Assembly (NCBI RefSeq): GCF_000277125.1
Contig: NC_016946.1
Location: 4,960,001 to 5,024,000, forward strand
From: Mycobacterium intracellulare ATCC 13950
Lineage (GTDB): Bacteria; Actinomycetota; Actinomycetes; Mycobacteriales; Mycobacteriaceae
Direction of reading: 5' to 3'
DNA length: 64,000 nucleotides
Made by a program: the position numbers and the translations under genes. The notes beneath the pieces were generated by a model. It searched no databases, was not told where the DNA came from, and was given only the letters and a program-made list of their open reading frames with translations. Positions 32,025-54,087 of the stretch are shown piece after piece. The number at the start of each line of letters is the position of its first letter. Position 1 is the first letter of the stretch.

Positions 32025-33224
32025 GTGGCGCCCGACATGGACCCGATCGACCCGCCGGTCCCCGTTCCAGACGTTCCCGGCGCCGATGTGCCGGCCGGCG
32101 CCGGCAGATTACCCCCCCACTCGGCGTTGTCGCCCCGTCAGCGAATGGTAGTCGAGGCATCGGCCCTCGGTGATCTGGCCCTGCGCACCTGGGTGGCCTC
32201 GCTGCTCACCACCACGGTGACACCGTTCGTGGTCGCGGGCGCCCTGCGGCAATCCGATGCCTCGACCGAGCGGAGCAACCTCGACTTCTATACCGAGCTG
32301 GGGGCGGCGGGAGATCCCGCGCGGTCCTTTCCGGCGCCCACCGAGTTGCCGCGGGTGACCTCGCGTCGCGCCAGCCCGCTGGCGGAGTGGGTCGCGCGCG
32401 GCACGGTCGACAACATCGCGTTCCCCAGCAGCTTCACCGCGATCAACCCCGCGATGCGCGCGCGCTGGAGCGCGTGGGGATCCAACAACATGGTGCGCGC
32501 GCAGCACTGGCGCCACGACGACGGGCCGCGGCCCACGCTGTGCGTCATCCACGGCTTCATGGGGTCGTGGTATCTGGCCAACGGGCGGTTCTTCTCGCTG
32601 CCCTGGTACTACCGGGCGGGCTACGACGTGTTGATGTACACGCTGCCCTTTCACGGCAAGCGGGCCGAAAAGTTCTCGCCCTTCAGCGGTTTCGGCTATT
32701 TCGCCGGCGGTCTCAGCGGTTTCGCCGAGGCGATGGCCCAGGCCGTGCACGACTTTCGTTCCGTCATCGACTACCTGCGCCACACCGGTGTCGACCGGAT
32801 CGCGCTCACCGGCATCTCGCTGGGTGGCTACACCTCGGCGCTGGTGGCCTCCGCCGACGATCGGCTCGAGGCCGTCATCCCCAACTGCCCGGTCGTCACT
32901 CCCGCGACGCTGTTCGACGAATGGTTCCCGGCCAACAAGCTGGTGCGGATGGGCCTGCGCCTCTCCGATATCAGCCACGAGGCGTTGAGCGCCGGCATGG
33001 CGTACCACTGCCCGCTCAGTTACCCGCCGCTGGTCGGACGGGACCGCCGGATGATCATCACCGGCCTCGGCGACCGGATGGCGCCGCCGGACCACGCCGT
33101 CAAGCTATGGCGGCACTGGGATCACTGTGCGCTGCACTGGTTTCCGGGCAGCCACGTGTTGCACGTGAGCCAGTTGGACTACCTGCGCCGGATGACGGCA
33201 TTCCTGCAGGAGGTCATGTTCTAG
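32025..33224 (+). CDS. Alpha/beta-hydrolase-like protein (Rv0293c homologue)
   Basis: 399 residues from GTG 32025 (M. tuberculosis Rv0293c: 400). The N-terminal 35 residues are Pro-rich. The hydrolase core begins near residue 165 with C-V-I-H-G-F-M-G-S (oxyanion region), followed by nucleophile elbow G-I-S-L-G-G-Y (residues roughly 264-270), and ends with a candidate catalytic His in G-S-H-V-L-H-V. Possible catalytic residues are thus present, but the substrate is unknown. The 3' end overlaps eccE3 by 11 bp, tail to tail, so read-through from ESX-3 could make antisense RNA here. Confidence 0.82.
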
Positions 33225-34251
33225 CGGCCTCGAGGGTGTCGGTGGTCTCGGTGGTTGCCGAGTTGGTTTCCGGGCCGCCGGCCGACGACGCCCGATGGGC
33301 CCCGCCGACCAGGGTGGGCCAGTGCAGCTGGGCGAGCAGGCCCGCGGGCGCGGTCGTGTGTCCGTCCAGCCGCGCCGTCGACAACAGGTCCAGCGCCGTC
33401 AGTGCGGGCAGGTGGTTCCCGCGCTGCGGGGTCAGCCCGTCCAGCGGCGCCGTGCGCTCCGGCGGGGTGTCGGTCTGGAACGCGCACGCCACCGCGACGG
33501 TGGGGTGGGCCTTGTCGCCGGCGATCTCCAGCGCGGTGCAGGTCTCGCGGGCCGCATGCGACCGGATGGCGTCCAACGTCTCCGGCAAGGCCTCATCCAC
33601 CCGGATCTGGTATGCCGCAATGTAATCCGATGCGCCGCGCTGCACGCCGCGCCACCGCTCGCGGGGGTTGGACGTCAACAGCCGGGGAACGTCGTCGGGT
33701 GCGACGGCGGTCGCTTCCCAGCCGATCTCGCGGAGGTGGTCGGCCAGGCGCCGCGCCGCGACCTGGGCGGTCTCCTGCAGCGGGATCCGCGGCGAGCGGG
33801 CCCGCAGCGCGGCCAGGTTCTCCGGCGCCGACACGGTGAGCCCGATCCAGGTCTCGCGCCGCGATGTGTCGGAGGCGTTGTCCCGGCTGGTGATCCGGAT
33901 CTTGTCCGCCCGGATGCCGTAGCGGTCCAGGTAGCCGGCGATCAGCGGCAGCGGCAGCACATCGGAGTCGTCCTCCGGTGCGCCCACCCGGACCAGGGCG
34001 GTGGTCGCCGTGGCGGGGGGCTGCGGGGTGAACGCGTTGGCGCGCCCGATGATCGCCAGGCGGCGGCGCACCAAGGTGGTGAAATACAGGCCACCCCACC
34101 AGCCGAACAGCACGATCACGACGGCCGCCGCGATGCCGAGCAGCCAGTAGTCTCGTGGCGATCGCCATGGGTAGGCCATAACCGCGGGCACAATGGCCAA
34201 GAGCGCCAACGTGATTCGCCCGCTCCCGGGGGTAGGTATCGACATCTTCAC
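33214..34251 (-). CDS. eccE3: ESX-3 membrane complex subunit EccE3
   Basis: 345 residues from GTG 34251, overlapping the mycP3 stop by 4 bp; ATG 34245 is an alternative. It has two transmembrane helices near the N-terminus (ITLALLAIVPAVMAYPW; YWLLGIAAAVVIVLFGWWGG) and a large soluble domain, as in M. tuberculosis EccE3 (Rv0292, 331). EccE is the peripheral subunit of the type VII core complex EccB-C-D-E and may stabilise it with MycP. It is the last ESX-3 gene. The tail is Ala/Thr-rich and ends 11 bp inside the opposing Rv0293c homologue. Confidence 0.92.
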   Translation of the reverse strand: MKMSIPTPGSGRITLALLAIVPAVMAYPWRSPRDYWLLGIAAAVVIVLFGWWGGLYFTTLVRRRLAIIGRANAFTPQPPATATTALVRVGAPEDDSDVLPLPLIAGYLDRYGIRADKIRITSRDNASDTSRRETWIGLTVSAPENLAALRARSPRIPLQETAQVAARRLADHLREIGWEATAVAPDDVPRLLTSNPRERWRGVQRGASDYIAAYQIRVDEALPETLDAIRSHAARETCTALEIAGDKAHPTVAVACAFQTDTPPERTAPLDGLTPQRGNHLPALTALDLLSTARLDGHTTAPAGLLAQLHWPTLVGGAHRASSAGGPETNSATTETTDTLEAART

Positions 34252-35657
34252 GGGGTGGGGTCCTTTCGACGGCGTGCGGCGATGGTGGTGACCGCGCCGG
34301 CCACGGCGACCAGCACGGCCAGCACGGCGGTGCCGACCACCGCGACGGTCCGCGGTGTGGTGTTCTCGGGCGCCGGGGCCGGAGGCAGAGCGACCTGCTT
34401 GGCCGCCGCCCCGCTCGGCTGGTCGCCGGCGGGCAACTGCCAGGTCAGCGCGGCCACCGGGTCCACGCTGCCGGCGCCGACCACGTTGGACGGGTCGCGG
34501 GCGCCGTTGTGCGCGGTCGCGGTGATGCGATGCGTCACCGCGGTGGCGGACAGATCGGGATACTTGCTGCGCACCAGCGCCGCGACGCCGGCGACGTAAC
34601 CGGCCGCGTAGCTGGTGCCCTTGAGGGCGACCAGTTGCTGATGGTCGTCGGGCAGGCCGTTCGCCAGGCCCGCGCCGTCACCGTTGCCCACCGACACGAT
34701 GCGCTCGCCCGGCGCCGCGACACCCACCCACGGGCCCGCCACGGTGAATTTCGACGGCTGGCCCTCCGGGGTCAGCGACGCCACCGAAAGCACGTAGGGC
34801 TGCCACAACGACGGGATGGACACGGAGGTGACGCCGGCCCAGTTGCGCGGATCGTTCGGACGGCTCAGGTCGGTGAGCGGGTTGGATTCGCACGACGTCC
34901 CACCGGCGAACGATCCGGTCGGTCCGCTGTTGCCCGCGGCGGCCACGATCACCGCGTCCTTGTCCACCGCCGCGTAGCGCACGGCGGCGCCGAGGGCGGC
35001 CTGGTCGACGGGGCGGTCGACGGGCAGGCAGGTGGCCGAGCCGACGTCGATGACCCGGGCGCCGAGGTCGGCCGCGTGCACGATGGCCCGGGCGAGGGTC
35101 GTGACCTCGGTCGACACCCGCGCCATCAGCGGGTCGCCGCCCGGCGTGCGGGGGGAGAACCTGGCCGACGACGTCCTGATCGACACCACCCGCGCCGCGG
35201 GGGCCACGCCCGAGAACCCGTCGTCCGGCGACGGCTGGCCGGCGATGATCCCGGCGACCAGCGTGCCGTGTCCGTCGCAGTCGGTCAGGCCGTCGGTGGC
35301 CTCGACGAAGTCGCCGCCCGGCTCGACATTGGGCAGCCGCGGACCCGGCCGCACCCCGGTGTCGAGGACGGCGACCAGCTGACCGTCGCCACGCGAGAAC
35401 TGCCATGCCGCAGGCAGATTCAGCGCCGACTGGCTGGGCGTGGGGGCGCCCGGATCGCTGCCCGGGATGACCCCGGACGTCACGCACGGTCCGCGCTGCT
35501 CCATCGGCTGCACCGGCCCCGGCGCCCCGCTCGGTGGGGGGACGCCGGGATCGACGGTCGGCGGGCTGATCGCGAAAGCCGGCGGACTCGTCCACGTCGC
35601 GGTGGCCGGCAACAGGGCCAACACCGCCGCGAAGCAGGCTGATGCCGATCGAATCAT
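34248..35657 (-). CDS. mycP3: Mycosin MycP3 (ESX-3 subtilisin-like protease)
   Basis: 469 residues from ATG 35657. Signal peptide residues 1-29. The subtilase triad is complete: D99 (VLDTGV), H130 (DGHGT) and S349 (GTSYAA), with oxyanion N243 (AAGNSG). A short propeptide-like segment and paired cysteines (C58, C127) surround the N-terminal extension. A single membrane anchor lies near residues 434-458 (TVAVVGTAVLAVLVAVAGAV), with a basic tail. Mycosins are required for type VII secretion-complex stability. It overlaps both neighbours (eccD3 by 4 bp, eccE3 by 4 bp), showing translational coupling. Length agrees with M. tuberculosis MycP3 (461). Confidence 0.95.
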   Translation of the reverse strand: MIRSASACFAAVLALLPATATWTSPPAFAISPPTVDPGVPPPSGAPGPVQPMEQRGPCVTSGVIPGSDPGAPTPSQSALNLPAAWQFSRGDGQLVAVLDTGVRPGPRLPNVEPGGDFVEATDGLTDCDGHGTLVAGIIAGQPSPDDGFSGVAPAARVVSIRTSSARFSPRTPGGDPLMARVSTEVTTLARAIVHAADLGARVIDVGSATCLPVDRPVDQAALGAAVRYAAVDKDAVIVAAAGNSGPTGSFAGGTSCESNPLTDLSRPNDPRNWAGVTSVSIPSLWQPYVLSVASLTPEGQPSKFTVAGPWVGVAAPGERIVSVGNGDGAGLANGLPDDHQQLVALKGTSYAAGYVAGVAALVRSKYPDLSATAVTHRITATAHNGARDPSNVVGAGSVDPVAALTWQLPAGDQPSGAAAKQVALPPAPAPENTTPRTVAVVGTAVLAVLVAVAGAVTTIAARRRKDPTP

Positions 35658-37078
35658 CGATTGAGCACCAGGCTGAACAACCCGACCACGAACGCCATGA
35701 CGGGGATCAGCGAGGCGTCGAGTCCCGCCGCGGCGAAGCCCACCAGCCGGCGCACCGGAAGCGAATAGCTCTCCGGCTCAGCGATTCCCGGGTTCAACGC
35801 CAGCACGATCCACACCGCCACGAGCGCCAGGAGCACCACGGCCGCACCGAGGGCGGCGCCGTAGCGTCCCGTCGCCGTGTAGATCACCAGCAGCACGCCG
35901 GCGGCCAGGAAGGGCTGGGCGAGCAGCCATGCCTTGCAGGCGGCCGAATCCCACACCCGGGCGCGCAGCACCGATGCCGCGGCGGTCGCCCCGACCACGT
36001 ACCAACCCGCGCCGCTCAGCGTCTCCGGGCGCAGCGCGATCGTGACCGAGCCCAGGACGCTGAGCAACACCGCGGCGGCGATGAATCCGCTCTGGTGGGC
36101 GTCGCTGATCCGGACCCGGCGGGGCAGGTCCTCGAGCACCTGCAGCGAGGGCGCCGACGGCGTGGGATCCCCGGGCGCCGGAATCACCGGCAGCGGGAAA
36201 CGGGCCCACAGCGCGGACATTTGCGCCGCCTCGATGGTGACCAGCAGCGCGGCCACGATCAGTCCGCAGCCGATGGCGACCAGCTTGACGTGCCAGAGCA
36301 ATTCGGCTCCGGCGGCCAGCAGCACCGCGGCGCCCAGCACCGCCGTCGCGGTGAAGAATCCGGCGATACGTTCCCGTTCGGCGCTAGGCACCATCAAGGC
36401 GATCAGCGACCACGCGGTGACCCCGGCCGCGGCCAGCATCACCTGCGCCGGGCCGAACCTGCCCGGCACCGCCAGCACCAGCGCGGCGGCGATGGGCACC
36501 AGCGCGGCGATCGACAGCGCCGTGCCGGTGCGCGCCGAGCGCGCCGTGACGAGCAGGCCGACGATCGCGGTCAGCGCCGCCACCGCGCTGACCGCAACCA
36601 GCCCGGACAGCGCGCCGGTGGCGACGCGGTAGGTGACCGACAGGCCGGTCGCCAGGAAGGCCACGGCGATCGCCGCGGCCAGCGCGCCACGCTGGATATG
36701 CGTTGTGCCCCAAGGCTTGAGCCGAGAGGTGGAGAAAATCATCGCGGCGTCGGCGATGTCCTCGACGATTCCGGGTGCGGCCGGGCCGGCCGGCACCGGC
36801 TGCAGCGCGAGCAGGTCACCGTCGACGACGCCGACCGTGTCCAGGCTCGCGTCCAGACTGAACGGCGCGCCACCGATGGGCGCCAGGCTCAGTTGGGTCG
36901 CGCCACCGACCTCGGCGGCGCCGCGCGAGCCGGAGGCGTCCTCGCCGTCGCCGTTCGCGGTGGCCGGGACCACCAAACGCTGGACCGCGGGCAGGATTTC
37001 GCGCAGCGGCAGCTCGGCGGGCAGGGCCATTTCCGTCAACCTGCTGTCCGCGAGAATTGCCACGCGGACGATCGGCAT
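35654..37078 (-). CDS. eccD3: ESX-3 inner-membrane channel subunit EccD3
   Basis: 474 residues from ATG 37078 (MPIVRVAILADSRLTEMALP), matching the start and length of M. tuberculosis EccD3 (472). GTG 37096, with GAGGG upstream, would add six residues. An N-terminal ubiquitin-like domain covers residues 1-100; 11 transmembrane helices follow, as expected for EccD, ending with FVVGLFSLVLNR. Two EccD copies per protomer form the membrane vestibule of the type VII complex. Its stop overlaps the mycP3 start by 4 bp. It is 78 bp downstream of espG3. Confidence 0.93.
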   Translation of the reverse strand: MPIVRVAILADSRLTEMALPAELPLREILPAVQRLVVPATANGDGEDASGSRGAAEVGGATQLSLAPIGGAPFSLDASLDTVGVVDGDLLALQPVPAGPAAPGIVEDIADAAMIFSTSRLKPWGTTHIQRGALAAAIAVAFLATGLSVTYRVATGALSGLVAVSAVAALTAIVGLLVTARSARTGTALSIAALVPIAAALVLAVPGRFGPAQVMLAAAGVTAWSLIALMVPSAERERIAGFFTATAVLGAAVLLAAGAELLWHVKLVAIGCGLIVAALLVTIEAAQMSALWARFPLPVIPAPGDPTPSAPSLQVLEDLPRRVRISDAHQSGFIAAAVLLSVLGSVTIALRPETLSGAGWYVVGATAAASVLRARVWDSAACKAWLLAQPFLAAGVLLVIYTATGRYGAALGAAVVLLALVAVWIVLALNPGIAEPESYSLPVRRLVGFAAAGLDASLIPVMAFVVGLFSLVLNR

Positions 37079-37156
37079 GACGGTTCCGGACGTCACCGGA
37101 CCCTCGAAGAATGTTGCGGCCGTTCCTGGAACATCGTGCTCTCTTCTCTATTTCTT

Positions 37157-38059
37157 TCAGTGTTGGACGGACAGTGTTGAATTCGAAAAGTCTCGTGCTA
37201 GCCGGTGTTCGGCGAACCATCCGGCGTCGGGCAATTGGGCGGTCAATTGTTCGATCGCGACGGCGATCGCGAACGGGGTGCCGGGCGCGAAGGTCGAAAC
37301 CCACTCGCCGTCGAACGCGCGGGACGGGCTGACCAGGACCCGGCCCTCGCTTGCGTCGACAATGCTCATACCCACCTCGGTGGTGGAGTGTCGACCGTCG
37401 CGGTGGCAGCCGGCGACGATCTCGACGTAGCTTCGCGACCCGTTGAACACCGACTCCACCACAGGACGCGCCGATTGCGGAATACCAAGATAGTCAAGGA
37501 CTTCGGCGAGTGGAGCACCGGAACGCAGCCGCTCGTCGGCGCGGGCGCCCACCCGGGTCGGCATGCTGAACTCGTCGAACCGAGCCGGTTGCCGCTGGGC
37601 GAGCCCGACGCACAGGACCGGAACCAGGGCGCGCGGATCGTCGATGTCCATGGCGGTGAACGTGATCAGCTGCGCGCTGCGCAACGCGACCACCGTCCTC
37701 GACGGCCGGCCGCCGGCCCCGGCGCGCTGCGCGACGATGCCGCGCAGTAGCTCGCCGGCGCCGCCGGCCGCACCGGCGTCCTTGGCGGGGCCGACGTAAC
37801 GCAGGTCGAGCCACCGCTCGGGAAAACACACCACTTTGATCCACTCGGCAACCGCGGGGTTGATGAGCCCGCCTTCCGATACCAGGCCCATCTGGGTGAG
37901 CTCCGCCTTCTGACGGTCGAGGAACGCGTTGCGTTCCGCGGCATCACGATAGGGGCAGGTGATTGCCAATACCCACGGGAAGCTTCCCGCCCCAATCGTT
38001 TCCGCGATGAACCACGCGTGGTCGACCGTCAGCTCGACGGCGTTGGGAGCTGGTTCCAT
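37157..38059 (-). CDS. espG3: ESX-3 cytosolic PE-PPE chaperone EspG3
   Basis: 300 residues from ATG 38059 (M. tuberculosis Rv0289: 295). Soluble, no signal, with the EspG central beta-sheet and helices ([46 protein letters not shown]-like [13 protein letters not shown]). EspG3 binds the tip of the PPE helical bundle of PE5-PPE4 and keeps it soluble until EccC3 recognises the PE signal. It lies 20 bp after esxH. No oddities. Confidence 0.93.
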
Positions 38060-38079: not shown

Positions 38080-38370
38080 CTAGCCGCCCCACTTGGCGGC
38101 TTCGGCCTGGTCGCGGGCCAGCATCGACATGGTGTTGGCCTCGTGGGTGCTGGCCATCGACTGGTACGCGCGCACCAGGCTTTCCATGGCCTGGTTCCAC
38201 TGGGCCTGCCACACCTGGTAGGTCATACCGGTGTCACCCTGCCAGGCGTTGGACAGCGTGGCCTGTTCGGCGGAGATGTCGGCGCCGAGCCCCTGCATCG
38301 TGCCGGCGTAGCCCGACATGTCGGCGGCGTGGCTCAACATCGCCGGGTAGTTGTACATGATCTGCGACAT
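38080..38370 (-). CDS. esxH: ESX-3 secreted WXG100 protein EsxH
   Basis: 96 residues from ATG 38370 (AGGA upstream), the same length as M. tuberculosis EsxH (TB10.4). It has two helices joined by the W-Q-G turn (AWQGDTG, residues 42-48). It is secreted as a 1:1 heterodimer with EsxG and needed for siderophore-mediated iron uptake, and it inhibits host ESCRT in M. tuberculosis. In M. tuberculosis zinc is bound by H14, H70, H76 and E77. Here H14, H76 and E77 are present, but position 70 is Gln ([13 protein letters not shown]), so the zinc site is altered. The gene is 43 bp after esxG. Confidence 0.96.
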
Positions 38371-38413: not shown

Positions 38414-38707
38414 TCAGAACGCGGTGTAACCGGAGGCGGCCGCCGCGTCCGCGGCCACGTAGGTGCCGGCGGCGTCGCCGAGGTTGGCCTGGGCGATATC
38501 CAGCAGCGTGTTGACCCGTGCGGCGACCTCCACGAACCGCGCGTGCGCGGCCTGGAACGCCGCCGAGGACTCGCCCTGGTGGAAGGCCTGCGCCGACATC
38601 GCTTCCTGCTCGGCCTGGCTGATCGTGCTGCGCAGCAACGCGGCCTTGGCGCTGAACGCCGACTGCGAGGCAACCAACTGCGGAATATGAGCGTCCAACA
38701 TACTCAT
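38414..38707 (-). CDS. esxG: ESX-3 secreted WXG100-family protein EsxG
   Basis: 97 residues from ATG 38707 (AGGA then six bases), nearly identical to M. tuberculosis EsxG (TB9.8): [40 protein letters not shown]. The WxG position reads GESSAAF, as usual for EsxG. The partner EsxH is immediately downstream and supplies the W-Q-G turn. Neither has a cleavable signal; EsxG ends YTAF-like (ASGYTAF). The 64-bp gap upstream could hold a second promoter, as reported in M. tuberculosis. Confidence 0.96.
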
Positions 38708-38771: not shown

Positions 38772-40262
38772 TTATCCCCCCTTCCCCGGTTCGGCTGGGC
38801 CCCTACCGTTGACGGCGTCCTGCTCCCACGTGCCGGGCACCATCGGCATCCGTGGGCCGCCGCCGAAGTCGTCGTCGGCCAGCTTGGTCAATCCCGCCGC
38901 CTGAAACGCCTTCTGCCTCTGCTTGGTTCCGGCGAACCCGAGCGGTCCGGCCCCCTGGGCCGAAGCCACCGCGGCCGCCAGCTCTTCCTCGTCGCCGTAG
39001 TCCGGGGGCACACCGAAATCGGATTCCATGTCCGCGAATTCGTCGGCGTGGTCGTGCAGCGCGGCTCGCCGCCTGCGCCGAGCCCGCGCCTCGGCGCGGG
39101 CCGGTGCCGCCGCGCCGGCCGCCGGGATCGTCGCCGCCGGCGCCTTGGCCCCGCCGCGCCCGGTCAGGGTGGGACCGACGCCGGTGTCCGGGTCAGCGCC
39201 GTAGGCGACCACGTAGGCCAAGTTTCCGGCCGCCGCCGCCGGCGCCGGGGCCGCCGGCGCGCCGGTGCCGGCCGCGACCGTGGTGGCCGGGGCGGCGGCG
39301 GGAGTCGCCACCGTCGGCGCCATGGCGACCGCCGGCAGCATGGACGGCTTGTTCGACGCCAGCACGGGGGCCACCGCGGCCGGGGCCGCCGCCTCCGGCG
39401 CGGCCTCGGCGGGCGTGGTGAGCAGGGAGCTGAGGCCGATCCCCAGCAGCAGCGGAATCAGGAACGGTGCGGTCAGGATCGCGCCCCAGGTCGGCCAGCC
39501 GACGGCGTTGAAGAACACCTGGTAGGCGATGAAGAACAGCAGCGGTCCGTTGGCCGCCAGGAACGCCGGCAGGTTCGAGAAGAAGTCCTGCAGCATCTGC
39601 TGGATGTTCTGGAAGAAGTCCTGCAGGAACTTCGACAACTGCTGGATGAAGTTCTGCCACCAGTCCCCGGTGTTCTGTGCGGCGTTGGACGTGAGGTTGT
39701 TGGTCTCGCTCCCGGGATTGACGATGGTCGGCGCGGCCATGGTGCGGGGCGCCGCGGCCAGCGCCGAACCCGAGACGGCCTGGTAGGTGCCCATGGTGGT
39801 GGCCGCCTGAACCCACATCCGCGCGTAGTCGGCTTCGTTGACCGCGATCGGAATGGTGTTGATGCCAAAGAAATTCGTCCCCACCAGCACCGCGTGCACG
39901 GCGTGGTTGGTGGCGAGCTCCCCCAGTGTCGGCATCGCCGCCAACGCTGCCGTGTACGCCGTCGCCGCGACCTCTTGTTGCGCCGCGGCGCCCGCGCTGT
40001 CGGCACTGGCCTGCTGCAGCCAGGCCAGGTACGGCAGGTGGGCCGCCACATACTGCTCGGCGCTCGGCCCTTCCCACGCGCCCGCCTGCGCCTCCCCCAG
40101 CAGCGCACTGAGTTCCCCGGCCGCCGTGGCGTATTGGGCGCTGAGCGAGGTCCACGCACCGGCGGCCGCCAACAGCGGCCCCGGTCCCGGACCGGCGCTC
40201 AGCAACGCCGAATGCACCTCTGGTGGCGACGCCATCCAGATGGGGGCGAGGGGGGCAGTCAT
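38772..40262 (-). CDS. PPE4: PPE4, ESX-3 substrate partner of PE5
   Basis: 496 residues from ATG 40262, 2 bp after the PE5 stop. The N-terminal 180-residue PPE domain carries P-P-E (residues 13-15), the [11 protein letters not shown]xG region and the EspG-binding helical tip ([21 protein letters not shown]). The middle (residues roughly 185-300) is Gln/Asn-rich with repeated [20 protein letters not shown] and hydrophobic helices [18 protein letters not shown]. The C-terminal part is Ala/Pro-rich and ends in the PPE-SVP-like block [18 protein letters not shown]...[12 protein letters not shown]5-PPE4 is required for iron/mycobactin use in M. tuberculosis. Length agrees with M. tuberculosis PPE4 (513). 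Confidence 0.94.
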
Positions 40263-40264
40263 CG

Positions 40265-40573
40265 TCAGGCGCCCGCGATCCCGAACGTCGCAGCGGCCGC
40301 GGTGTCACCCGCGAGATAGCTTGCGCCGGCTTCCCCGACGCCGAGACCGGCGCGGCCCAGCTCCTCGACGCCCTGGACCGCCATGGCCGAGTGCTCCTGG
40401 CCCTGAGCGCTGAATCCCATGGCCGTCTGCAGCGACACCGGATCGACCGCCGGCGGGACCACCGCCGTGATCGCCGGGGCCGCCGCCGCGTGTGCGGCGG
40501 CCAGCCGTGCCGTCAGCGCCTCCACCGCGGCGCTGGTGGCGGCCAGTCCTTCGGGAACCACTCGCAGCGTCAT
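40265..40573 (-). CDS. PE5: PE5, ESX-3 substrate partner of PPE4
   Basis: 102 residues from ATG 40573, as in M. tuberculosis (Rv0285). It is a helical hairpin PE domain. The general type VII signal Y-x-x-x-D/E is present near the C-terminus as S-Y-L-A-G-D (Y-L-A-G-D: residues roughly 86-90). It lies between eccC3 (2 bp upstream) and PPE4 (2 bp downstream), so these are translationally linked and the pair is produced in equal amounts. No anomaly. Confidence 0.95.
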
Positions 40574-46181: not shown

Positions 46182-48031
46182 GCCGGCACCGACAGCCCGA
46201 GGCCGCGCAGCAGCGGCTCAACCGACCTTGCGACGTCGTCGTCGGTGATCGTCATCAGCTCCTCGTCACTGAATTCGCCGGTTCCGGCGTGTTCCGAATG
46301 GTCGAGCCGGAACTCTCGTTCTTCTTCGGAGCGTTCGACGATGTTTCGGACGAATCGACCGTTACCGGCGATGTCCAGGTTGCGTCGCGAAATTCCGTTG
46401 GCATCGGGTGTCGACTCGGTCGCCAACTTCGTGAACAACTCCTCCATGTGGTCGAGCGCGGCCTTTTCGAAGATGCTGTCGCGCTGCTCGGCCATCTTGT
46501 TCGCGATCTCGACCAGTTCCGACGGTGCGTAGGAAGGGAAGTCGATGTTGCGGGTGAATCGGGAACGCAAGCCCTCGTTGGTGTCCAGGAACTTGTCCAG
46601 GTCGGCCCGGTACCCGGCGATGATGACCACCAGGCGGTCGCGGTCGTTCTCCATCCGCGCCAGCAGCGTGTCGATGGCCACCAGCCCGAAGTCGTTCTTG
46701 GCGCCGGTGGCGACCAGTGCGTAGGCCTCGTCGAGGAACAGCACGCCGTCGAGCGCGCTGTCGATGATCGCGTTGGTCTTGGCCTCGGTCTCGCCGATGT
46801 GCTGGCCGATGAGGTCGGCGCGGTGCACCTCGCGGATGTTCTCCCGCTTCAAAAGCCCCAGGCCGCAATAGATCTTGGCGACCACGCGGGCGATGGTGGT
46901 CTTACCGGTTCCGGGCGGGCCGGCGAAGACCAGGTGGTGGGCGCGCTGCGCGACCGCGAGCCCACGCTGCTTGCGGACCAGCTCCATGGCGACCGAGCTC
47001 TTCAGCCGCGACACCTGGTTCTTGACCTCTTCGAGGCCGATGAACTCGGCGAGCTGGCGTTCGGCCTCGTGCAGCAGCACGGCCTTGCGTTCGTGGGCGG
47101 CGGGGTCGACGAAATCCTCGGCGCTGGGCTCGGTTTCGGGATCCCACGGATCGGTGCGGGCTTCGATGCGCGCCGCCGTGGTGGTCACGATGCCGAAACT
47201 GGTGTCGGTCAGGGCCTGTTCGACCTGTTCGTTCTCGGGGTGGGCCGCGTACAGGTCCTGCAGCACTTCGCTCGCCGCGTCCTCGTCGACGTGGGCGCGC
47301 AGCACCAGCGCTTTGGCCAGCGCGCCGTCGACGGCCGCCACCGCGACCGGCCCCTCGGGCTCCTCCAGGTAGGACAGCGCCGGGGCGAACATGCCCAGCC
47401 GGGCCAGCGCGGTGCCGAGCGCGATCTTGGCCGCGTGCGAGAACGCCTCGTCCAGGTCCGTGTCGTTGACGATCGGGGTCAGCAGTTTGACGACGTCCGA
47501 CCAGCGCTCGGCGCGGTAGTTGATGACGACGGACACCCAGCGGGCCTCACGCCAGTTCGGTCGCTCGGCCGTCAGGCCGGCGACGATCGCGTCGGCGTCA
47601 GCAAACCGTCCCGCCGTCGCGAGCGCGGCCGCGTAGGCAAGGTGGAAGTCGTCGGGAGTGGTCGCGCGGAACTGTAGATACAGTCCGGTGTCGTAGCGGA
47701 AGCCCAGCGAGTTGGGTGCCAGGTCGACCTGGCGCTGCAGCACGCCCGCGGAGGCCGCGGTGCGCGACACCGCCTCGAGCACTCGCAGGGACGTGTCTCC
47801 GGCGGCCGCCAGCCCCGTCCACGCGTCGCATTGGTCGTGGGCGATGCGGGTCAGCGCGGCGAAACCCGAACGCGCGGCGGCCAGGTCGGCCGGCCGCTGG
47901 CGTTGGTAGACGACGATGCCCAGCGCGCGACAGCAGGTGGCGAACCGGCTGACGACGTCGCCGTCAACGCGCGTGTCCACGCGCGAATTGGCCGGCTGAA
48001 CTGTGAGCATGCCGGTGTCACCGTGTTCCAC
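46178..48031 (-). CDS. eccA3: ESX-3 AAA+ ATPase EccA3
   Basis: 617 residues from GTG 48031, with ATG 48010 (MLTVQPANSR) an alternative. Residues 1-280 are TPR-like helical repeats. The C-terminal AAA+ domain has Walker A G-P-P-G-T-G-K-T (about residue 374), Walker B V-L-F-L-D-E-A and the sensor/arginine region RSRFTRNIDFP. EccA is the cytosolic CbxX/CfqX-type ATPase thought to release EspG from PPE substrates. It is the first gene of the ESX-3 operon, and the regulatory sites upstream (IdeR-like box 48082-48100; Zur-like box 48247-48261) control the whole cluster. No strong ribosome-binding site precedes either start. Confidence 0.95.
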   Translation of the reverse strand: MEHGDTGMLTVQPANSRVDTRVDGDVVSRFATCCRALGIVVYQRQRPADLAAARSGFAALTRIAHDQCDAWTGLAAAGDTSLRVLEAVSRTAASAGVLQRQVDLAPNSLGFRYDTGLYLQFRATTPDDFHLAYAAALATAGRFADADAIVAGLTAERPNWREARWVSVVINYRAERWSDVVKLLTPIVNDTDLDEAFSHAAKIALGTALARLGMFAPALSYLEEPEGPVAVAAVDGALAKALVLRAHVDEDAASEVLQDLYAAHPENEQVEQALTDTSFGIVTTTAARIEARTDPWDPETEPSAEDFVDPAAHERKAVLLHEAERQLAEFIGLEEVKNQVSRLKSSVAMELVRKQRGLAVAQRAHHLVFAGPPGTGKTTIARVVAKIYCGLGLLKRENIREVHRADLIGQHIGETEAKTNAIIDSALDGVLFLDEAYALVATGAKNDFGLVAIDTLLARMENDRDRLVVIIAGYRADLDKFLDTNEGLRSRFTRNIDFPSYAPSELVEIANKMAEQRDSIFEKAALDHMEELFTKLATESTPDANGISRRNLDIAGNGRFVRNIVERSEEEREFRLDHSEHAGTGEFSDEELMTITDDDVARSVEPLLRGLGLSVPA

Positions 48032-48047: not shown

Positions 48048-48081
48048 GTATGTAGTCTCCCCTAACCTGACCCGCCTGAAG

Positions 48082-48100
48082 TTAGCATTGCATAAGCTAA
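48082..48100. promoter_or_regulatory. IdeR (iron) box upstream of eccA3
   Basis: TTAGCATTGCATAAGCTAA is a 19-bp interrupted palindrome with both outer TTAG/CTAA arms of the mycobacterial iron box (consensus TTAGGTTAGGCTAACCTAA). A second half-like element, CCTAACCTGA, lies at 48061-48070. The position, 51-69 bases upstream of the eccA3 start, fits iron-dependent repression by IdeR, known for ESX-3 in M. tuberculosis. Confidence 0.75.
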
Positions 48101-48206
48101 CTGTCGAGGCGTTTGGGCCTGTCCGACTCACCACTGCACTGCCCTTCTTCTACCGCCGATGAGGACGTTCTGGAGAGGGTTTAGCCGCATTTTCGGCATA
48201 CTCACA

Positions 48207-48223
48207 GCCGCACGCCGTGCGGC
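48207..48223. repeat. Hairpin flanked by 7-bp direct repeats in the ESX-3 leader region
   Basis: GCCGCAC-GCC-GTGCGGC is a perfect 7-bp stem with a 3-base loop. CTCACAG occurs on both sides as a direct repeat (48201-48207 and 48224-48230). It lies between the Zur-like box and the IdeR-like box and would be in the transcript if the Zur-side promoter were used. Role unknown. Confidence 0.4.
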
Positions 48224-48246
48224 CTCACAGCAAGGCCTCACCTTAC

Positions 48247-48261
48247 TGAAAATCATTTTCA
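48247..48261. promoter_or_regulatory. Zur box upstream of eccA3
   Basis: TGAAAATCATTTTCA is a perfect AT-rich palindrome, and ATTTTCA follows directly, as in mycobacterial Zur sites. It is 216 bases upstream of the eccA3 start and after the methyltransferase gene end (48510). With the IdeR-like box it gives ESX-3 dual iron and zinc control, as described for M. tuberculosis Rv0282. Confidence 0.85.
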
Positions 48262-48509
48262 TTTTCAATCCCGGCACGCCACCTCGGCGCCCACCGGCTC
48301 GGCCGAGCGGATCAGGCACGACATCGTCCGCACCGGCGCGGTCATGGCAAGGACTCCTCGACGATCGGGTTGTGCTCGACGATCGCCCCGACCCGCAGGC
48401 CGGTGGAACGATCACGCAGCCACTAGTCGGCTGGCGGACCGAAAAAGTTCCGGCGTTGGTCGCTGCCCGAGCGAACTCGCCCGGCCTCCCGTGAAATCCG
48501 CCCGAGGGC
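48262..48509. other. Intergenic between methyltransferase gene and ESX-3 leader
   Basis: About 250 bases of GC-rich sequence upstream of the Zur-like box, with no supported gene. On the minus strand, short open frames exist (for example one reading TGLRVGAIVEHNPIVEESLP), but none has a matching neighbour or clear start; a decayed gene remnant is possible. Confidence 0.4.
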
Positions 48510-49415
48510 TCAGGTGCGGACGGCGCTCACCAACGTGTTGCGCGCGATCATCGGGCCGGCTTCGGTCTCCGGCCCCGGCACCGGGCGGCCGACCTCGCGC
48601 AGGTAGTCGGCCAACGGGGTGCCGACCGCGGTCCAGCCGCGGTTGCCGAACCACTCGGTGGCCGGCGCGCACTGCTCGTTGTAGACCAGCTGGAAGAACA
48701 CGCGCTGGTCGCCCTGCGCGGTGGCCGCGCGTTCTTCGGCGACGGCGGTCTCGAAGTCCTCGGGGTTCATCGGGGCGCCGTCCTCGACGGCGACGTGGCT
48801 GCCGTGACCGGCCAGCCCGTCGATACCGGTGAACAGCTGCTCCTGGGCGCTCGCCGGGAGATAGATCAGCAGGCCCTCGGCGATCCACGCCGAGGGTTTG
48901 GCCGGGTCGAAGCCGCTGTCGCGCAGGGCTTGCGGCCAGTCCTCGCGCAAATCGATGGCGATCTCGCGGCGCTCGGCGCGCGGCTCGGCGCCGACGCCGG
49001 CGAGCACCTCCCGCTTGAAGTCGAGCACCTGCGGCTGGTCGAGCTCGAAGATCGTGGTCGCGGCCGGCCAGTCCAGGCGGTAGGCGCGCGAGTCCAGGCC
49101 CGCCGCCAAGACCACCACCTGTCGCACGCCCGCGTCGGCGGCGCGCCGGAAGTAGTCGTCGAAGTACTTGGTGCGGGCGCCCTGGAAGTTGACGAAGTTT
49201 TCGCCGAAGTCGGCGGTCTTCAGCTGGTGGTCGGGGTCCTTGCCGTCGAGGACGTCGGCGGCGGCACCGCCGACGGCGCGGCAGAAGATCTCCGCGTACG
49301 GATCCACGGCCAGCGGGTCGGGCTTTTGCGCCTCCAGCGCCCGCGCGGTCGCGACGAACAACGCGGTCGAGCCCACGCTCGTGGTGATGTCCCAGGTATC
49401 GCCTTCGCTTCGCAC
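48510..49415 (-). CDS. SAM-dependent methyltransferase, SAV2177/UPF type (Rv0281 homologue)
   Basis: 301 residues from GTG 49415 ([20 protein letters not shown]), the same start and length as M. tuberculosis Rv0281 (302). It belongs to the mycobacterial PPM-like S-adenosylmethionine methyltransferase family: [24 protein letters not shown] (SAM motif, residues roughly 89-102), E-L-D-Q-P and [10 protein letters not shown]. The substrate is unknown. It lies between ESX-3 and rpmE2 on the same strand; no Zur-like box is seen directly upstream. Confidence 0.88.
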
Positions 49416-49496
49416 CCCGCCCACAGTACGCCGCCGCGACTCGGCCCCTTTTCGGCTGGCGCGCAACGGTAGTGGAGCGCGTCGGCGCGGTACGGG

Positions 49497-49751
49497 CTAC
49501 CGGCGACCGTAGCGGCGGTGGAACTTCTCCACTTGTCCCGCGCTGTCGACGATGCGGCGGCTGCCGGTCCAGAACGGGTGGGAGTCGGCGGTGACGTCGA
49601 CGACGACGAGCGGATAGGTCCGGGTTCCCCGCGCCGTCTGCCACTCGACCATCCGCGGGCTGGTGCGGGTCGACCGCGTCAAGAACATGGCGCCGGTGGT
49701 GGCGTCCTGGAAGACGACGGGGTGGTAGTCGGGATGCACGCCGGGCTTCAT
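49497..49751 (-). CDS. rpmE2: Ribosomal protein L31 type B (zinc-free)
   Basis: 84 residues from ATG 49751, overlapping the mrf stop by 4 bp. It has the L31 fold: [16 protein letters not shown], then D-S-H-P-F-W-T-G and F-H-R-R-Y-G. It has no cysteines, so it lacks the CxxC zinc motif of the type A paralogue and can replace it under zinc limitation. Translationally coupled to the upstream mrf-like gene and expected to be repressed by Zur through the box at 50960. Confidence 0.92.
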
Positions 49752-50947
49752 GAAGGGTCCTTGCCTTGCTGGGTGTGGCCGGCCACGTTGTCGGCGGCCT
49801 CGGTCAATTCCGCGCACGGATCCTCGTGCCAATCGCCGAACGGGTCGTCGTAGGCGATCCAGGCGCGCGGGTTCCGCATCTCCTCCTCGGTGAGCAGCGC
49901 GCCGCGCAGGGCGTCGAGGACCTCGTCGGTCCGGGCGCCGCACACCAGGATGGCCATCGCGGTATGCCGATCGCCGTGCCGGTCGTCCCAGCCGAGCGCG
50001 GCCAGCGCGCGTCGCTCGGCGTCGACGCCGTCGCGCTCCGGCCCGCTCATCGCCGTCAGCCATTTGCCGGCCGAGCTCACCCGCAGCCCGGGGCCGGCCG
50101 ATTCCAGCCACATCGCGCGGTCGGGATTGCTGGCCAGCCACAGCCGTCCCCGGGTCCTGATCACGCCGTCGAGCAACAGATCCAGGGCGGCGTGCAGGCG
50201 CTGCGGATGAAAGGGGCGACGGGCGTTGAATTCCACCAGGCTGATCGGACCGCGGGACTCCAGCGGCGGCTGCCCAGCCAGCAGCGGGCCGTGCGGGTCG
50301 TCGCTTCGGCCGCGGCGCGCGTCGCGGTACAGGTTGTTCAGTGCGTCCTCGATGCCGCCGGCCCCCACGCGGACGCGGGCGCGCGGCGACAGGCGACGCA
50401 GCACGGCCGCCACGAACGGGTTGGCGCGGTCGAGCACGACGACGTCGGCGAACTCGGCCTGTCCGATCACCACCTGGGCGTGGGTGCGGCCGTCGTCGAG
50501 TTCCTCCTCCCCCAACGCCTGGTCCAGCCAGGCCGCCGAATCGACGCAGGTCACCACGGCGGCGATCGCCACGTCCAGGGCCGCGGGCCCGTCGATGTAC
50601 CCCGGCGCCACCCGCACCCGAACGTGCTTGATGGCCAAGCAGATTGGTTCAGGTTCCAACCAGGGCGCCAGGTGCACCACGATCCGGTCCACGTCGTCGC
50701 GGCGGTGCAGCTGGCGCAACAGCACCAACAGGTCGTTGCGGATGGTGCACGAGACACAGCCGTGCGCGAGTTCCAGTCCGTTCTCGGTGCTGGTCAACAC
50801 GCCGTCGGACAGCGACGCCGTCGTGCGGCGCACCACGTGACCGTCGAATCGGTGCTCGACGACCAGCGTTCCCGGCGTCCGCAGCATCGCGCCCACAACG
50901 GCGTCGGTGTCCCGCTGGCCGGCGACCAGGATGACGGGCGTCCGCAT
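49748..50947 (-). CDS. mrf: COG0523-like GTPase-family protein, Mrf homologue
   Basis: 399 residues from ATG 50947 behind GGAGG. It aligns with COG0523 (CobW/ZigA) proteins: N-terminal V-I-L-V-A-G, the metal motif region H-G-C-V-S-C-T-I-R (C64, C67), and the C-terminal domain ([32 protein letters not shown]). The Walker A loop (GxxGxGKT) is replaced by A-G-Q-R-D-T-D-A, so nucleotide binding is doubtful. A CVSC motif and a place in the alternative-ribosome operon match the mycobacterial Mpy recruitment factor (Mrf), which recruits the hibernation factor Mpy to zinc-free ribosomes; I assign it on those grounds. A classic zinc chaperone is the alternative. Confidence 0.78.
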
Positions 50948-50959
50948 CGTCCTCCTTAC

Positions 50960-50974
50960 TGATAATCATTTTCA
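50960..50974. promoter_or_regulatory. Zur box upstream of mrf-rpmE2
   Basis: TGATAATCATTTTCA lies 13-27 bases upstream of the mrf start on the minus strand, covering the probable promoter and transcription start. Zur with zinc should repress mrf-rpmE2. It is 41 bases from the second box at 51015, so both diverging units have their own operator. Confidence 0.85.
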
Positions 50975-51014
50975 TCTAAGCCGTTCCTACGGTACCGTCC
51001 GTGGGGGACCTTGT

Positions 51015-51029
51015 CGAAAATGATTTTCA
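51015..51029. promoter_or_regulatory. Zur box upstream of rpmB2 operon
   Basis: CGAAAATGATTTTCA, continuing into ATAA, lies 22-36 bases upstream of the rpmB2 start. It matches the mycobacterial Zur consensus and controls the plus-strand ribosomal operon. Confidence 0.85.
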
Positions 51030-51050
51030 ATAAGAGATGTGGAGGTGCAG

Positions 51051-51287
51051 GTGTCCGCCCACTGCCAGGTGACCGGCCGGCGGCCGGGTTTCGGTAACGC
51101 GGTGTCGCATTCCCATCGCAGGACCCGTCGGCGCTGGTCGCCGAACATCCAACTCAAGACGTACTACCTGCCCTCGGAGGACCGCCGGATCCGGCTACGG
51201 GTCAGCGCCAAGGGCATCAAGGTCGTCGACCGCGACGGCATCGAGGCGGTCGTCGCGCGGTTGCGCCGCGAAGGGCAGCGAATGTGA
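51051..51287 (+). CDS. rpmB2: Ribosomal protein L28, zinc-free paralogue
   Basis: 78 residues from GTG 51051, directly after GGAGG with 5-base spacing; an upstream in-frame GTG at 51039 is part of that site. It has the L28 core [24 protein letters not shown] (shortened), and [18 protein letters not shown]. Only one Cys (C5), so the zinc ribbon of the usual L28 is broken. First gene of the rpmB2-rpmG-rpsN2-rpsR2-orf operon. Confidence 0.92.
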
Positions 51288-51451
51288 TGGCGCGCAACGA
51301 GATCCGTCCCCTGGTGAAACTTCGGTCCACCGCGGGCACCGGCTACACCTACATCACCCGCAAGAACCGGCGCAACGACCCCGACCGATTGGTCCTGCGC
51401 AAATACGACCCCGTCATCCGCCGCCACGTCGACTTCCGCGAGGAGCGCTGA
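51287..51451 (+). CDS. rpmG: Ribosomal protein L33, zinc-free paralogue
   Basis: 54 residues from ATG 51287, overlapping the rpmB2 stop (TGATG). It starts [20 protein letters not shown] and contains [19 protein letters not shown]. No cysteines, so it is the zinc-independent L33 type. It is followed after 2 bp by rpsN2. In M. tuberculosis the same gene order is Rv2058c-Rv2055c at a different site. Confidence 0.93.
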
Positions 51452-51453
51452 CC

Positions 51454-51759
51454 ATGGCCAAGAAATCCAAGATCGTCAAGAACGAGCGCCGCCGCGCGAT
51501 CGTGGCCCGCTACGCCCAACGCCGCGCCGAACTCAAAAAAATCATCCGCTCACCGGCGAGCACCCCCAAGCGACGGGCGGCGGCACGGGACGAGTTGGCG
51601 CGCCAGCCCCGCGACGCCAGCGCGGTGCGGGTGCGCAACCGCGACGCCGTCGACGGCCGACCCCGCGGCCACCTCCGCAAGTTCGGGCTGTCGAGGGTCC
51701 GGGTCCGCGAACTGGCCCACGCCGGCCAGCTCCCCGGCGTGCGGAAGGCGAGCTGGTGA
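51454..51759 (+). CDS. rpsN2: Ribosomal protein S14, zinc-free long form
   Basis: 101 residues from ATG 51454. It is the long S14 without the C-x-x-C...C-x-x-C zinc ribbon: [20 protein letters not shown], then [25 protein letters not shown] (shortened). The short zinc-binding S14 is replaced under zinc limitation. The stop overlaps the rpsR2 start. Confidence 0.94.
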
Positions 51760-52022
51760 TGGCCAGAAAAGTCGCGCGTCGCCGGGCCATCGCGCCGGCC
51801 GGCCGCTCGCCCAAGAGGAATCTGCTCGACAGCCTCGGGTTGCGCACGGTGGACTACAAAGACACGGCGACGCTGCGGGTGTTCATCTCCGAACGCGGCA
51901 AGATCCGTTCCCGCCAGGTGACCGGCCTGTCCGTCCAACAACAACGACAGGTCGCGACCGCCATCAAGAACGCCCGCGAAATGGCGCTCCTGCCCTACCC
52001 CGGACGGCACACGGCGCCTTGA
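51759..52022 (+). CDS. rpsR2: Ribosomal protein S18, zinc-free paralogue
   Basis: 87 residues from ATG 51759; GTG 51756 is the codon before it, inside the rpsN2 stop overlap. S18 core: [18 protein letters not shown], then [19 protein letters not shown]. No cysteines. Last recognised ribosomal gene of the operon; the stop overlaps the next TTG start. Confidence 0.94.
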
Positions 52023-52408
52023 CGTCCCCACGCCGCGGCACCGATCGCCCGTTCACCGTAATCGTCTGTGCCGCATGCGCCGTCGACGATCGACTGTCGG
52101 TCATCGACGAATTGCGCCCCGCCATCCGGCGCTGCCCGCATTCCATGTTGGTCTCGGTCGCCTGCATGCTCGGACCACTCACCTGCGCCTCTCGGCCGAC
52201 CGGCGGGGGCATGATGGCCCTGGTCCAGCCCTGCACGAACGATCGGGTGGCCAGCGGCCCGGCGCGGTGGATAGGACCCATCGCCGACAGCGATTCAGCC
52301 GCGGCGCTGCGCGACTGGCTGGTGCTCGGTCAATGGGAAAACATCCCCGTCCCAAGGCAACTCGATCGGCATCAGCGCTGGACACGCGACTCGCATCGAC
52401 GCAACTGA
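52019..52408 (+). CDS. Cys-rich small protein at the end of the zinc-free ribosome operon
   Basis: 129 residues starting at TTG 52019, overlapping the rpsR2 stop by 4 bp, which supports co-translation. The sequence is a compact domain with many cysteines: V-C-A-A-C near residues 16-20, [14 protein letters not shown] (residues roughly 47-56) and Q-P-C-T-N-D-R. It ends with W-I-G-P-I and [13 protein letters not shown]. Cysteine-rich and small, it looks like a thioredoxin-like ferredoxin or metal-binding protein. I recognise related genes in actinobacterial Zur clusters but know no function. A metal-handling role within the zinc-starvation response is inferred. Confidence 0.7.
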
Positions 52409-52442
52409 CGCCTGACGAACCCGGCGATGGGGTGCCGGGGCG

Positions 52443-54020
52443 CTAGCCGTCGCGGCCCGCCTCGTCGGCACCGTCGTCGCCCCAGGTGCCCGGCATCATC
52501 GGTGCCGTTGGGCCACCGTTGAATTCGTCCCCGGCCAGCCGGGTCAGCCCGGCCGCCGCGCCGACCGCCTCACGCTCGGCGGTGCCGGCGAATCCCAGCG
52601 TGCCGGCACCCCGATCGGACGCCAGCGACGCGGCCCAATCGGGGTCGACATCGACATTCATGTCCATGAACTCGTCGCCGTACCCGCGGTCCGTCGCGCC
52701 CCGGCGCCGCCGCGCCCGGGCCGCTTTGCGCGTGCGCGCGGCCGCGGCCGCCGCGGCGGCGGCGCTATCCGGTTCCGGCGCTTTCCTTTTCGCGCTGGAG
52801 CTGGCGCTCGCCCCCATCCCCGAGCCCGTTCCCATTCCGGGCGGACCGACGACGTACGGAGGAAAGAAGCCCGCCGCGGCCGGCGCCGCAGCGGGTGCGG
52901 CGGGAGCGGCGGTCACGGTGGTCGCCGTGGGGGCGGGCGCCGGTGCCGGGGCGGAGGCCGGCGCCGCCACCGGCGCGACGGGGGCGGTGGGGGCCATGGC
53001 GATGGCGGGCGGGATGCTGGGCGTCGGCGGCGGCGGCGCGGCCACCACCGGGAGGGCCGCGGGCTGGGGGATGGCGGCGAGGCCGGCCAGCCCGGCGAAT
53101 CCGCCGACGGCGCCGAGGGGCGCCGCCGCGAGGAGGAGCGCGGGCGCCAACAACTCCGGCTGGCTGATGAAAATCTCGAGGATGTGCGTCGGCCAGTCGA
53201 ACAGGATGAGTTGCACCAGGTACTGAAAGGCCAACGCCGGATTGTGCACCAGGTAATAGCCGAACTGCTCGAAATCCTCGAGCAGTTCCAGGGCGCGCAC
53301 CACCCAGAAGATGGGCTGCCCGGCATTCGTGTAGGCGTCGTAGGGCAGGCCGTTGACCGTGCCCTCGGACGGGTCCCAGTTGATGCCCAAGTTCTTCAGG
53401 ATGTTGGCGATGAAGTCGTTGAACGGATTGTCGATCTTGGGGTCGTGATCCTCGTCACCCGAATCATCGCTTGACGCATCGGATTTCACGATCGGCGGCG
53501 CCGGATCGGTTTGCGGTGTCGCGGCGACGGCGGCGGTGGACACCGCCTGGTAGGTCGACATCGTGGTCGCCGCCTGGGTCCACATCCGTGCGTAGTCGGC
53601 CTCGTTGACCGCGATCGGAACCGTGTTGACGCCGAAGAAATTCGTTGCCACCAGGGCCCCGTGGACGACGTGGTTGGTGGCGAGTTCGGGCAGCGTCGGC
53701 ATGGCGGTCAGCGCGGCGGTGTAGGCGGCCGCGGCGGTCTCGTGCTGGGTGGCGGCGGCGGCGCTGTCGGCGCTGGATTTTGTCAGCCACGCCAGGTAGG
53801 GGGCGTGCGCGGCCACGTAGGACTCCGCGCTGGGTCCCTCCCATGCCCCCGCCTGCACCCCCGCCAGCAAGGTGCTCAATTGTTCTGCGGCGGAAGCGTA
53901 TTCGGCGCTCAGCTCGGACCACGCGCCGGCGGCCGCCAGCAGCGGCCCGGGGCCGGGGCCGCTGCTGAGCAAAGCGGAATGCACTTCGGGCGGCGAGGCC
54001 ATGAAGATCGGCGCCGTCAT
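52443..54020 (-). CDS. PPE3: PPE protein, PPE3-like (Zur-regulated)
   Basis: 525 residues from ATG 54020 (GAGGAGT upstream). The N-terminal PPE domain is very like PPE4 of the ESX-3 operon: [51 protein letters not shown]. After residue 180 comes an acidic linker ([20 protein letters not shown]), a hydrophobic middle and an Ala/Pro-rich tail. The C-terminus has [20 protein letters not shown] and ends in the PPE-family block [10 protein letters not shown]. Position (next to the Rv0276 homologue) and length fit M. tuberculosis PPE3 (Rv0280, 536). No PE gene is beside it, so it likely pairs with PE5 for export by ESX-3. A Zur-like palindrome lies 47 bp upstream. Confidence 0.88.
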
Positions 54021-54066
54021 AGGTACTCCTCGGGCTGGAGGGCTTACCAGACTGAGGAGAGCTTAA

Positions 54067-54087
54067 TGAATATGATTGTCGTTATCA
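54067..54087. promoter_or_regulatory. Zur-like box upstream of the PPE3-like gene
   Basis: The 21-bp element begins TGAATATGATTG and ends TCGTTATCA: outer TGA...TCA arms and an AT-rich centre with an ATGAT/ATCAT core, as in the other three boxes but less perfect. It lies 47-67 bases before the PPE start and in the 31-bp tail of the MpaB-like gene side region. Confidence 0.7.

Follow-up and report, generated by a model that had tools for sequence, protein, structure and literature searches.

The closest described system to the locus reported here is a zinc island of Mycobacterium avium subsp. paratuberculosis (hereafter paratuberculosis), which gathers 45 of 70 zinc genes (PMC4298942). There, N,N,N',N'-tetrakis(2-pyridylmethyl)ethylenediamine (TPEN) induced ESX-3 15- to 37-fold, a PPE gene 24-fold, the mrf orthologue 218-fold, rpmE2 183-fold, rpmG2 192-fold and rpsN2 194-fold; rpsR2 rose 22-fold, with a q-value of 1.0 and a flag. 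In this 2014 study Eckelt et al. set paratuberculosis against seven other mycobacteria, and their abstract states that only this subspecies shows the clustering. In M. tuberculosis, ESX-3 is under both IdeR and Zur control (PMC3796483), and rpmB2, Rv0106 and rpsR2 are induced by zinc limitation (PMC8121289). Mrf recruits Mpy to zinc-free ribosomes and is degraded when zinc-bound (PMC7174638, PMC13418864). Here we analysed 64,000 nucleotides of M. intracellulare ATCC 13950 (the window; positions 4,960,001-5,024,000 of a single-contig genome of 5,402,402 bases). Window positions 33214-54020 hold, one beside the other, an ESX-3 operon, an Rv0281-like methyltransferase gene, rpmE2-mrf, the operon rpmB2-rpmG2-rpsN2-rpsR2 in divergent orientation, and a PPE gene. 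The contiguity of ESX-3, zinc-free ribosome genes, an Mrf homologue and a PPE gene, claimed in a preliminary description of this DNA, was borne out with the right coordinates by Pfam, NCBIfam and frame reading. We consider it very probable that the core of a Zur regulon is gathered here in one place, a reading that includes the predicted Zur-controlled starts, the insertion history and the membership of x129, a gene coupled to rpsR2.

Four Zur-like palindromes had been proposed, at 48247, 50960, 51015 and 54067. All are present and are the only strong boxes of the window: they score 33.3-39.6 against a matrix trained on 15 paratuberculosis Zur boxes from the literature, and every other place reaches at most 14.5, the 14.5 place itself overlapping the eccA3 box. 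The maximum was 13.1 in five Markov-1 sequences and 16.4 in the reversed window, and a score of at least 20 was reached nowhere in 30 rpoB loci totalling 127,629 bases, nor in the 55,000 window bases outside 46-55 kb. The matrix is partly circular, since some training boxes are orthologous to the tested ones; we therefore ran an untrained consensus palindrome on the whole 5.40-Mb genome. It found four places with at most one mismatch, three of them here and the fourth at genome position 493202, at the start of a znuABC-like operon (G000:C1:490603-493216, L173) in which the ABC-3 permease was called by family match and the other two genes by eye. A chance origin of the boxes is rejected by the matrix, the untrained palindrome and the rpoB-locus control. 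A smtB-zur pair lies elsewhere in the genome (by eye; the Fur family by family match).

The four boxes serve eccA3, mrf-rpmE2, the rpmB2 operon and the PPE gene, and so stand at the starts of transcription units as had been suggested. Of 40 fetched Mrf loci, 30 have an Mrf 73-92% identical (L033-L062, the close loci) and 10 an Mrf 66-71% identical (L063-L072, the distant loci). Both boxes of the mrf/rpmB2 divergent promoter are kept in 29/29 readable close loci, and the eccA3 box in all 21 with a readable eccA3 promoter. A conserved Zur-regulon box is found at eccA3, mrf and rpmB2, that of the PPE gene being recognized by matrix only. By analogy, a joint zinc response of the units is well supported, because the paratuberculosis orthologues are induced by TPEN and the boxes are conserved in relatives. 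The IdeR-like box of the preliminary description stood as a conserved palindrome, at 48082-48100; its likeness to IdeR sites is looser: it matches 14 of 19 positions (5 mismatches) of the IdeR consensus, the best match in the window. This palindrome, TTAGCTTATGCAATGCTAA on the gene strand, is unchanged in 19 of the 23 eccA3 promoters that were aligned and occurs also in promoters of species whose ribosome/mrf cassette lies elsewhere; it could instead be a site of another DtxR-family regulator. Searching open-licence papers for the 19-mer gave no match, and an Rfam search of 46000-54300 gave one chance-level match only. An element in the esx-3 5' untranslated region is mentioned as reported in PMC3796483.

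Of 396 genomes from the genus, 228 gave an Mrf match (E up to 1e-30). The methyltransferase gene or eccA3 lies beside the cassette in 28 of the 30 close loci and in none of the 10 distant ones; one of the two exceptions ends with its contig and the other is a second copy. The preliminary description had proposed comparing gene order across mycobacteria, and the division recurs in a set of 80 loci from named genomes, which partly overlap the 40 fetched loci: adjacency is seen in 25/29 loci with Mrf at least 77% identical and in 0/51 with Mrf at most 69% identical, the four exceptions being two short contigs and two second copies. Matches below 30-40% query coverage were dropped in the synteny counts and in the PPE-methyltransferase and separate-x129 counts below; Mrf fragments were kept in the named-genome count. 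The arrangement is present in, among others, M. colombiense, M. arosiense, M. interjectum, M. paraense, M. terramassiliense and Mycolicibacterium vulneris, in M. alsense and M. bohemicum with only the methyltransferase gene inside the locus, and in M. lepraemurium with partial loss. The species without it include M. triplex, M. genavense, M. montefiorense, M. simiae, M. kyorinense, M. gordonae and M. asiaticum. Absence is weak in L043, L067, L081, L084, L098 and L102, because these loci stop at a contig end. The spread among relatives rejects the idea of a strain-specific peculiarity.

It had also been suggested that the region acts as one zinc-response unit. The joint response is upheld by the TPEN data on orthologues and by the conserved boxes; the single unit is not, because four boxes serve four starts and eccA3 has an IdeR-like site in addition. 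A stronger version, in which type VII secretion and ribosome remodelling are physically coupled in one integrated unit, would account for the contiguity, the shared boxes and the co-induction in paratuberculosis (PMC4298942), but it is highly improbable in view of the four starts with boxes, spread over both strands, an iron-type site that only ESX-3 has, and parts that lie apart in 51 of the 80 named loci. As for the proposed link between secretion and ribosome remodelling, our results support co-regulation by analogy; any further physical or functional link would be hypothetical.

The history of the locus is suggested by genomes without the arrangement. In 12 of them, which have an EccA3 of at least 84% identity and carry mrf and eccA3 on one contig, the two genes are 274-491 kb apart. 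Among 18 ESX-3 regions of such genomes (L153-L170), the eccA3 Zur box is present in 16, and in 7 the PPE and methyltransferase matches lie less than 100 bases apart, as an uninterrupted site. Because the PPE and methyltransferase genes are often neighbours elsewhere and the eccA3 box occurs in 16 of 18 cassette-free regions, the ribosome/mrf cassette seems to have been inserted between zinc-answering units. EccA3 and Mrf trees were built from 33 genomes with both genes readable (35 Mrf rows) and an rpoB tree from 30 genomes, all with midpoint roots. The Mrf of 24 adjacent loci and two second copies falls on one side of a 100/100 branch. The M. triplex group, which lacks the arrangement, nests among species having it in both the EccA3 and the rpoB tree. 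A relic search of the 18 regions found two candidates and none in the reversed control: a degraded x129 between the PPE and methyltransferase genes (L155:11794-12153), in a genome whose cassette lies elsewhere, and a lone rpmE2, 81% identical, near ESX-3 (L162:12107-12358), with mrf about 275 kb away. The two relics suggest later loss. Most likely, a common ancestor of the M. avium complex and of slow-growing relatives acquired the cassette between the PPE and methyltransferase genes, when the two flanking units would already have been Zur-boxed, and some members of the group then lost it again.

The neighbourhood might also be accidental, the cassette having landed beside ESX-3 with no value in adjacency beyond hitch-hiking. 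Each unit keeps its own box and functions at separate sites in other species, and the cassette is missing or a relic in relatives, as an accident would have it. However, adjacency persists widely (25/29 of the named loci) despite intervening genes in many, both flanking units carried Zur boxes, and paratuberculosis has gathered its zinc genes in a wider island (PMC4298942). We consider mere accident unlikely, though a serious contender.

We then consider the gene that the preliminary description, like the methyltransferase gene at 48510-49466 between rpmE2 and eccA3, had overlooked. x129 comprises 129 codons at 52019-52408 and is translationally coupled to rpsR2. It has five invariant cysteines, is under purifying selection (dN/dS from 374 of 378 pairs) and is predicted to adopt a thioredoxin/ferredoxin-like fold. 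It had no family match in Pfam, NCBIfam or Protein Data Bank sequences, and a profile comparison with NuoE-type domains was not significant. At E up to 1, 31 x129 members together matched 9 families, none of them DUF1636 (PF07845); a DUF1636 search of 41 genomes gave no match anywhere, controls included, and is hence uninformative. A literature search of open-licence papers found none on x129. Zur boxes lie upstream of 12 of 13 x129 copies located away from the ribosome operon. In the environmental species Mycolicibacterium rhodesiae (L138), too, x129 adjoins the ribosome operon. x129 very probably belongs to the Zur regulon; our best guess at its nature is a metal or Fe-S protein, rich in cysteine and with a thioredoxin fold, that works together with COG0523 proteins. 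It is quite possible, if short of likely, that x129 simply carries electrons as an ordinary thioredoxin-like [2Fe-2S] ferredoxin, with no role in zinc sensing. x129 gave no significant sequence match to such ferredoxins (Aquifex 1m2a, Azotobacter FeSI 5abr) and differs from them in a fifth cysteine, also invariant. The cysteine spacing of these ferredoxins is a different one. More tentatively, and with rather low confidence, x129 may be the first of a so far undescribed family of thioredoxin-fold proteins with five cysteines, which are under Zur control and act with COG0523 proteins such as Mrf on zinc-free ribosomes, for instance as a metal- or redox-sensing partner deciding between hibernation and return to work; in M. 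avium-complex species x129 would be the last gene of the alternative ribosome operon. This conserved zinc-response gene, mostly labelled hypothetical in databases, is the least-known part of the locus and its best open lead.

Three observations concern x129 separately. MAP3766 of the 2014 paper was considered as a counterpart and rejected: the paper calls it a putative permease, and its tag places it on the PPE strand. The identity is also disfavoured by L040, in which rpsN2, rpsR2 and x129 were not found; at L040:11083-12842 (M. avium-like by inference), permease-like frames replace these three genes before the PPE gene (by eye). In L120 and L123 no match to rpmG2, rpsN2 or rpsR2 was found, and the start of x129 resembles the first RpmG2 residues fused on.

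Several points weigh against a gathered Zur-regulon core with this history and with x129 as a member. Zur control of these units in this genome is predicted from their boxes, and the expression support comes by analogy from paratuberculosis orthologues. The PPE box is weaker by the palindrome test (3 mismatches), and L168 and L170, two of the 18 non-adjacent ESX-3 regions, have no eccA3 Zur box. Genomes with adjacency fail to group as a single clade in the EccA3 tree (3 changes) and in the rpoB tree (2 changes); the history rests on midpoint roots and weak backbones (rpoB 73/62), and because the backbones are weak, repeated gain is possible. Relics occur in only two of the 18 regions. Among separate x129 copies, that of L239 stands in a locus of 8.3 kb in which no Zur box was found, and L248 and L254 look closely related. 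Of 72 x129 copies with a listed Mrf, 8 are either over 10 kb away or on a different contig, and 4 more are at 5.7-9.3 kb; 28 of 100 copies were unscored for this distance, their Mrf row being unlisted.

On the reading of a gathered Zur-regulon core, we propose the following. When zinc is plentiful, Zur on four operators would keep four starts shut, namely those of ESX-3, of mrf-rpmE2 (perhaps reading into the methyltransferase gene), of rpmB2-rpmG2-rpsN2-rpsR2-x129 and of the PPE gene. Under zinc starvation all four would open, and ribosomes would be rebuilt with paralogues lacking zinc-binding CxxC pairs. The Mrf homologue would, by analogy, recruit Mpy as hibernation factor to the rebuilt zinc-free ribosomes, and ESX-3 with its PE/PPE substrates would serve metal uptake, probably answering iron as well via the IdeR-like site.

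The features are collected in the table. ESX-3 is complete, running right to left from 48031 to 33214 as eccA3, eccB3, eccC3, PE, PPE, esxG, esxH, espG3, eccD3, mycP3 and eccE3; Pfam, NCBIfam and frame reading find eccA-eccE, mycP, espG, PE/PPE and EsxG/H in order. To its right follow the methyltransferase gene, rpmE2 and mrf on the same strand, and then the divergent ribosomal operon, x129 and the PPE gene. Joints are tight: rpmB2/rpmG2 and rpsN2/rpsR2 overlap by 1 base, mrf/rpmE2 and rpsR2/x129 by 4. L28, L33, S14, S18, L31, the CobW-type protein and the right-hand PPE protein match Pfam above curated cut-offs. The names EsxG, EsxH and PE (PE5-like) are those we presume, and we take the methyltransferase to be Rv0281-like from its position beside eccA3. 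In the translations (by eye) the zinc-binding cysteine pairs are gone: L33, S14, S18 and L31 have no cysteine, L28 has one, and CxxC occurs nowhere. These L28, L33, S14, S18 and L31 paralogues adjoin Zur boxes, as in a zinc-free (C-) operon. Mrf is COG0523-like, with a CxSC motif and no Walker A: C64, S66 and C67, and D15 at the Walker A glycine position, are invariant in 9/9 alignment rows, in agreement with the published account of Rv0106-type proteins lacking Walker A (PMC2770081). Beyond the PPE gene, at 57133-58770 (-), lies a condensation-domain protein gene (Pfam PF00668), perhaps for a lipid acyltransferase; the paratuberculosis table has pks2 and papA3 genes adjoining its PPE gene (PMC4298942).

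Table. Features of the ESX-3/zinc-free ribosome locus of M. intracellulare (window positions).
Feature	Position	Strand	Basis
eccE3	33214..34251	-	NCBIfam TIGR03923 above cut-off
mycP3 mycosin	34248..35657	-	NCBIfam TIGR03921 above cut-off
eccD3	35654..37096	-	NCBIfam TIGR03920 above cut-off
espG3	37157..38059	-	Pfam PF14011
esxH	38080..38370	-	frame reading; start by inspection
esxG	38414..38707	-	open reading frame and frame reading
PPE4-like	38772..40262	-	Pfam PF00823 and PF18878
PE5-like	40265..40573	-	open reading frame and frame reading
eccC3	40576..44565	-	NCBIfam TIGR03924 and TIGR03925 above cut-off
eccB3	44562..46181	-	Pfam PF05108
eccA3	46178..48031	-	Pfam PF21545 and PF00004
IdeR-like palindrome, eccA3 promoter	48082..48100		best IdeR-consensus match of window
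Predicted Zur box of eccA3, perfect palindrome	48247..48261		consensus palindrome and matrix
S-adenosylmethionine-dependent methyltransferase, LCM family, start uncertain	48510..49466	-	Pfam PF04072
rpmE2 (L31, cysteine-free)	49497..49751	-	Pfam PF01197; 4-base overlap with mrf stop
mrf homologue (CobW/COG0523-like, Rv0106/MSMEG_6069 type)	49748..50947	-	Pfam PF02492 and PF07683
Predicted Zur box nearest mrf	50960..50974		consensus palindrome, matrix and conservation
Predicted Zur box nearest rpmB2 operon	51015..51029		consensus palindrome, matrix and conservation
rpmB2 (L28)	51054..51287	+	Pfam PF00830
rpmG2 (L33)	51287..51451	+	Pfam PF00471; ATG overlaps rpmB2 stop
rpsN2 (S14)	51454..51759	+	Pfam PF00253
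rpsR2 (S18)	51759..52022	+	Pfam PF01084
x129, five-cysteine, predicted thioredoxin/ferredoxin-like	52019..52408	+	start overlaps rpsR2 stop (TTGA)
PPE3-like PPE-PPW protein	52443..54020	-	Pfam PF00823 and PF18878
Zur-like box of PPE gene	54067..54081		matrix score 35.7; 3 mismatches to palindrome

Finally, the cluster seen here is of a known kind and is more widely shared than published; the novelty implied by the preliminary description is reduced because the 2014 paratuberculosis paper has the same core (PMC4298942). Searching open-licence papers for alternative ribosomal proteins in synteny with ESX-3, or for ESX-3 with rpsR2 in intracellulare, found none. None of the seven mycobacteria compared in PMC4298942 is among the species named here as having the arrangement. 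One of the seven, M. avium (MAA), has the core too, because the paper's own table gives the orthologues consecutive tags, MAV_4860 to MAV_4879. The published exclusivity to paratuberculosis does not hold for the core, which is shared and onto which the paratuberculosis island seems added. Genomes with the cassette absent, inserted or left as a relic form a natural series for asking what benefit comes from linked secretion and ribosome genes under one metal signal.

M. tuberculosis has orthologous ESX-3 (Rv0282-Rv0292), Rv0106 and Rv2055c-Rv2058c (table of PMC4298942), but there the three gene sets lie apart by locus numbers, as the preliminary description stated for ESX-3 and Rv2055c-2058c, whereas they are contiguous in M. 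intracellulare. M. smegmatis likewise has Zur-controlled rpsR-rpsN-rpmG-rpmB, mrf (MSMEG_6069) and rpmE2 at MSMEG_6045-6071 (PMC7174638); its ESX-3, by contrast, is outside the zinc cluster as listed there and is under IdeR only (PMC3796483). The paratuberculosis island ZnGI (map3725-map3788) is nearest, with ESX-3, cobW/mrf, rpmE2, rpmG2-rpsN2-rpsR2 and a PPE gene likewise in one Zur-boxed stretch that is TPEN-induced (PMC4298942). It differs in that the LSP15-type genes (a Mn/Zn ABC transporter, a Fur-like gene and a second cobW) lie outside the stretch in M. intracellulare, where a genome-wide count gives one ABC-3 permease match, two to the Fur family and two to CobW_C, with a single cobW in this stretch, and in that rpmE2 of M. 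intracellulare directly adjoins the methyltransferase gene.

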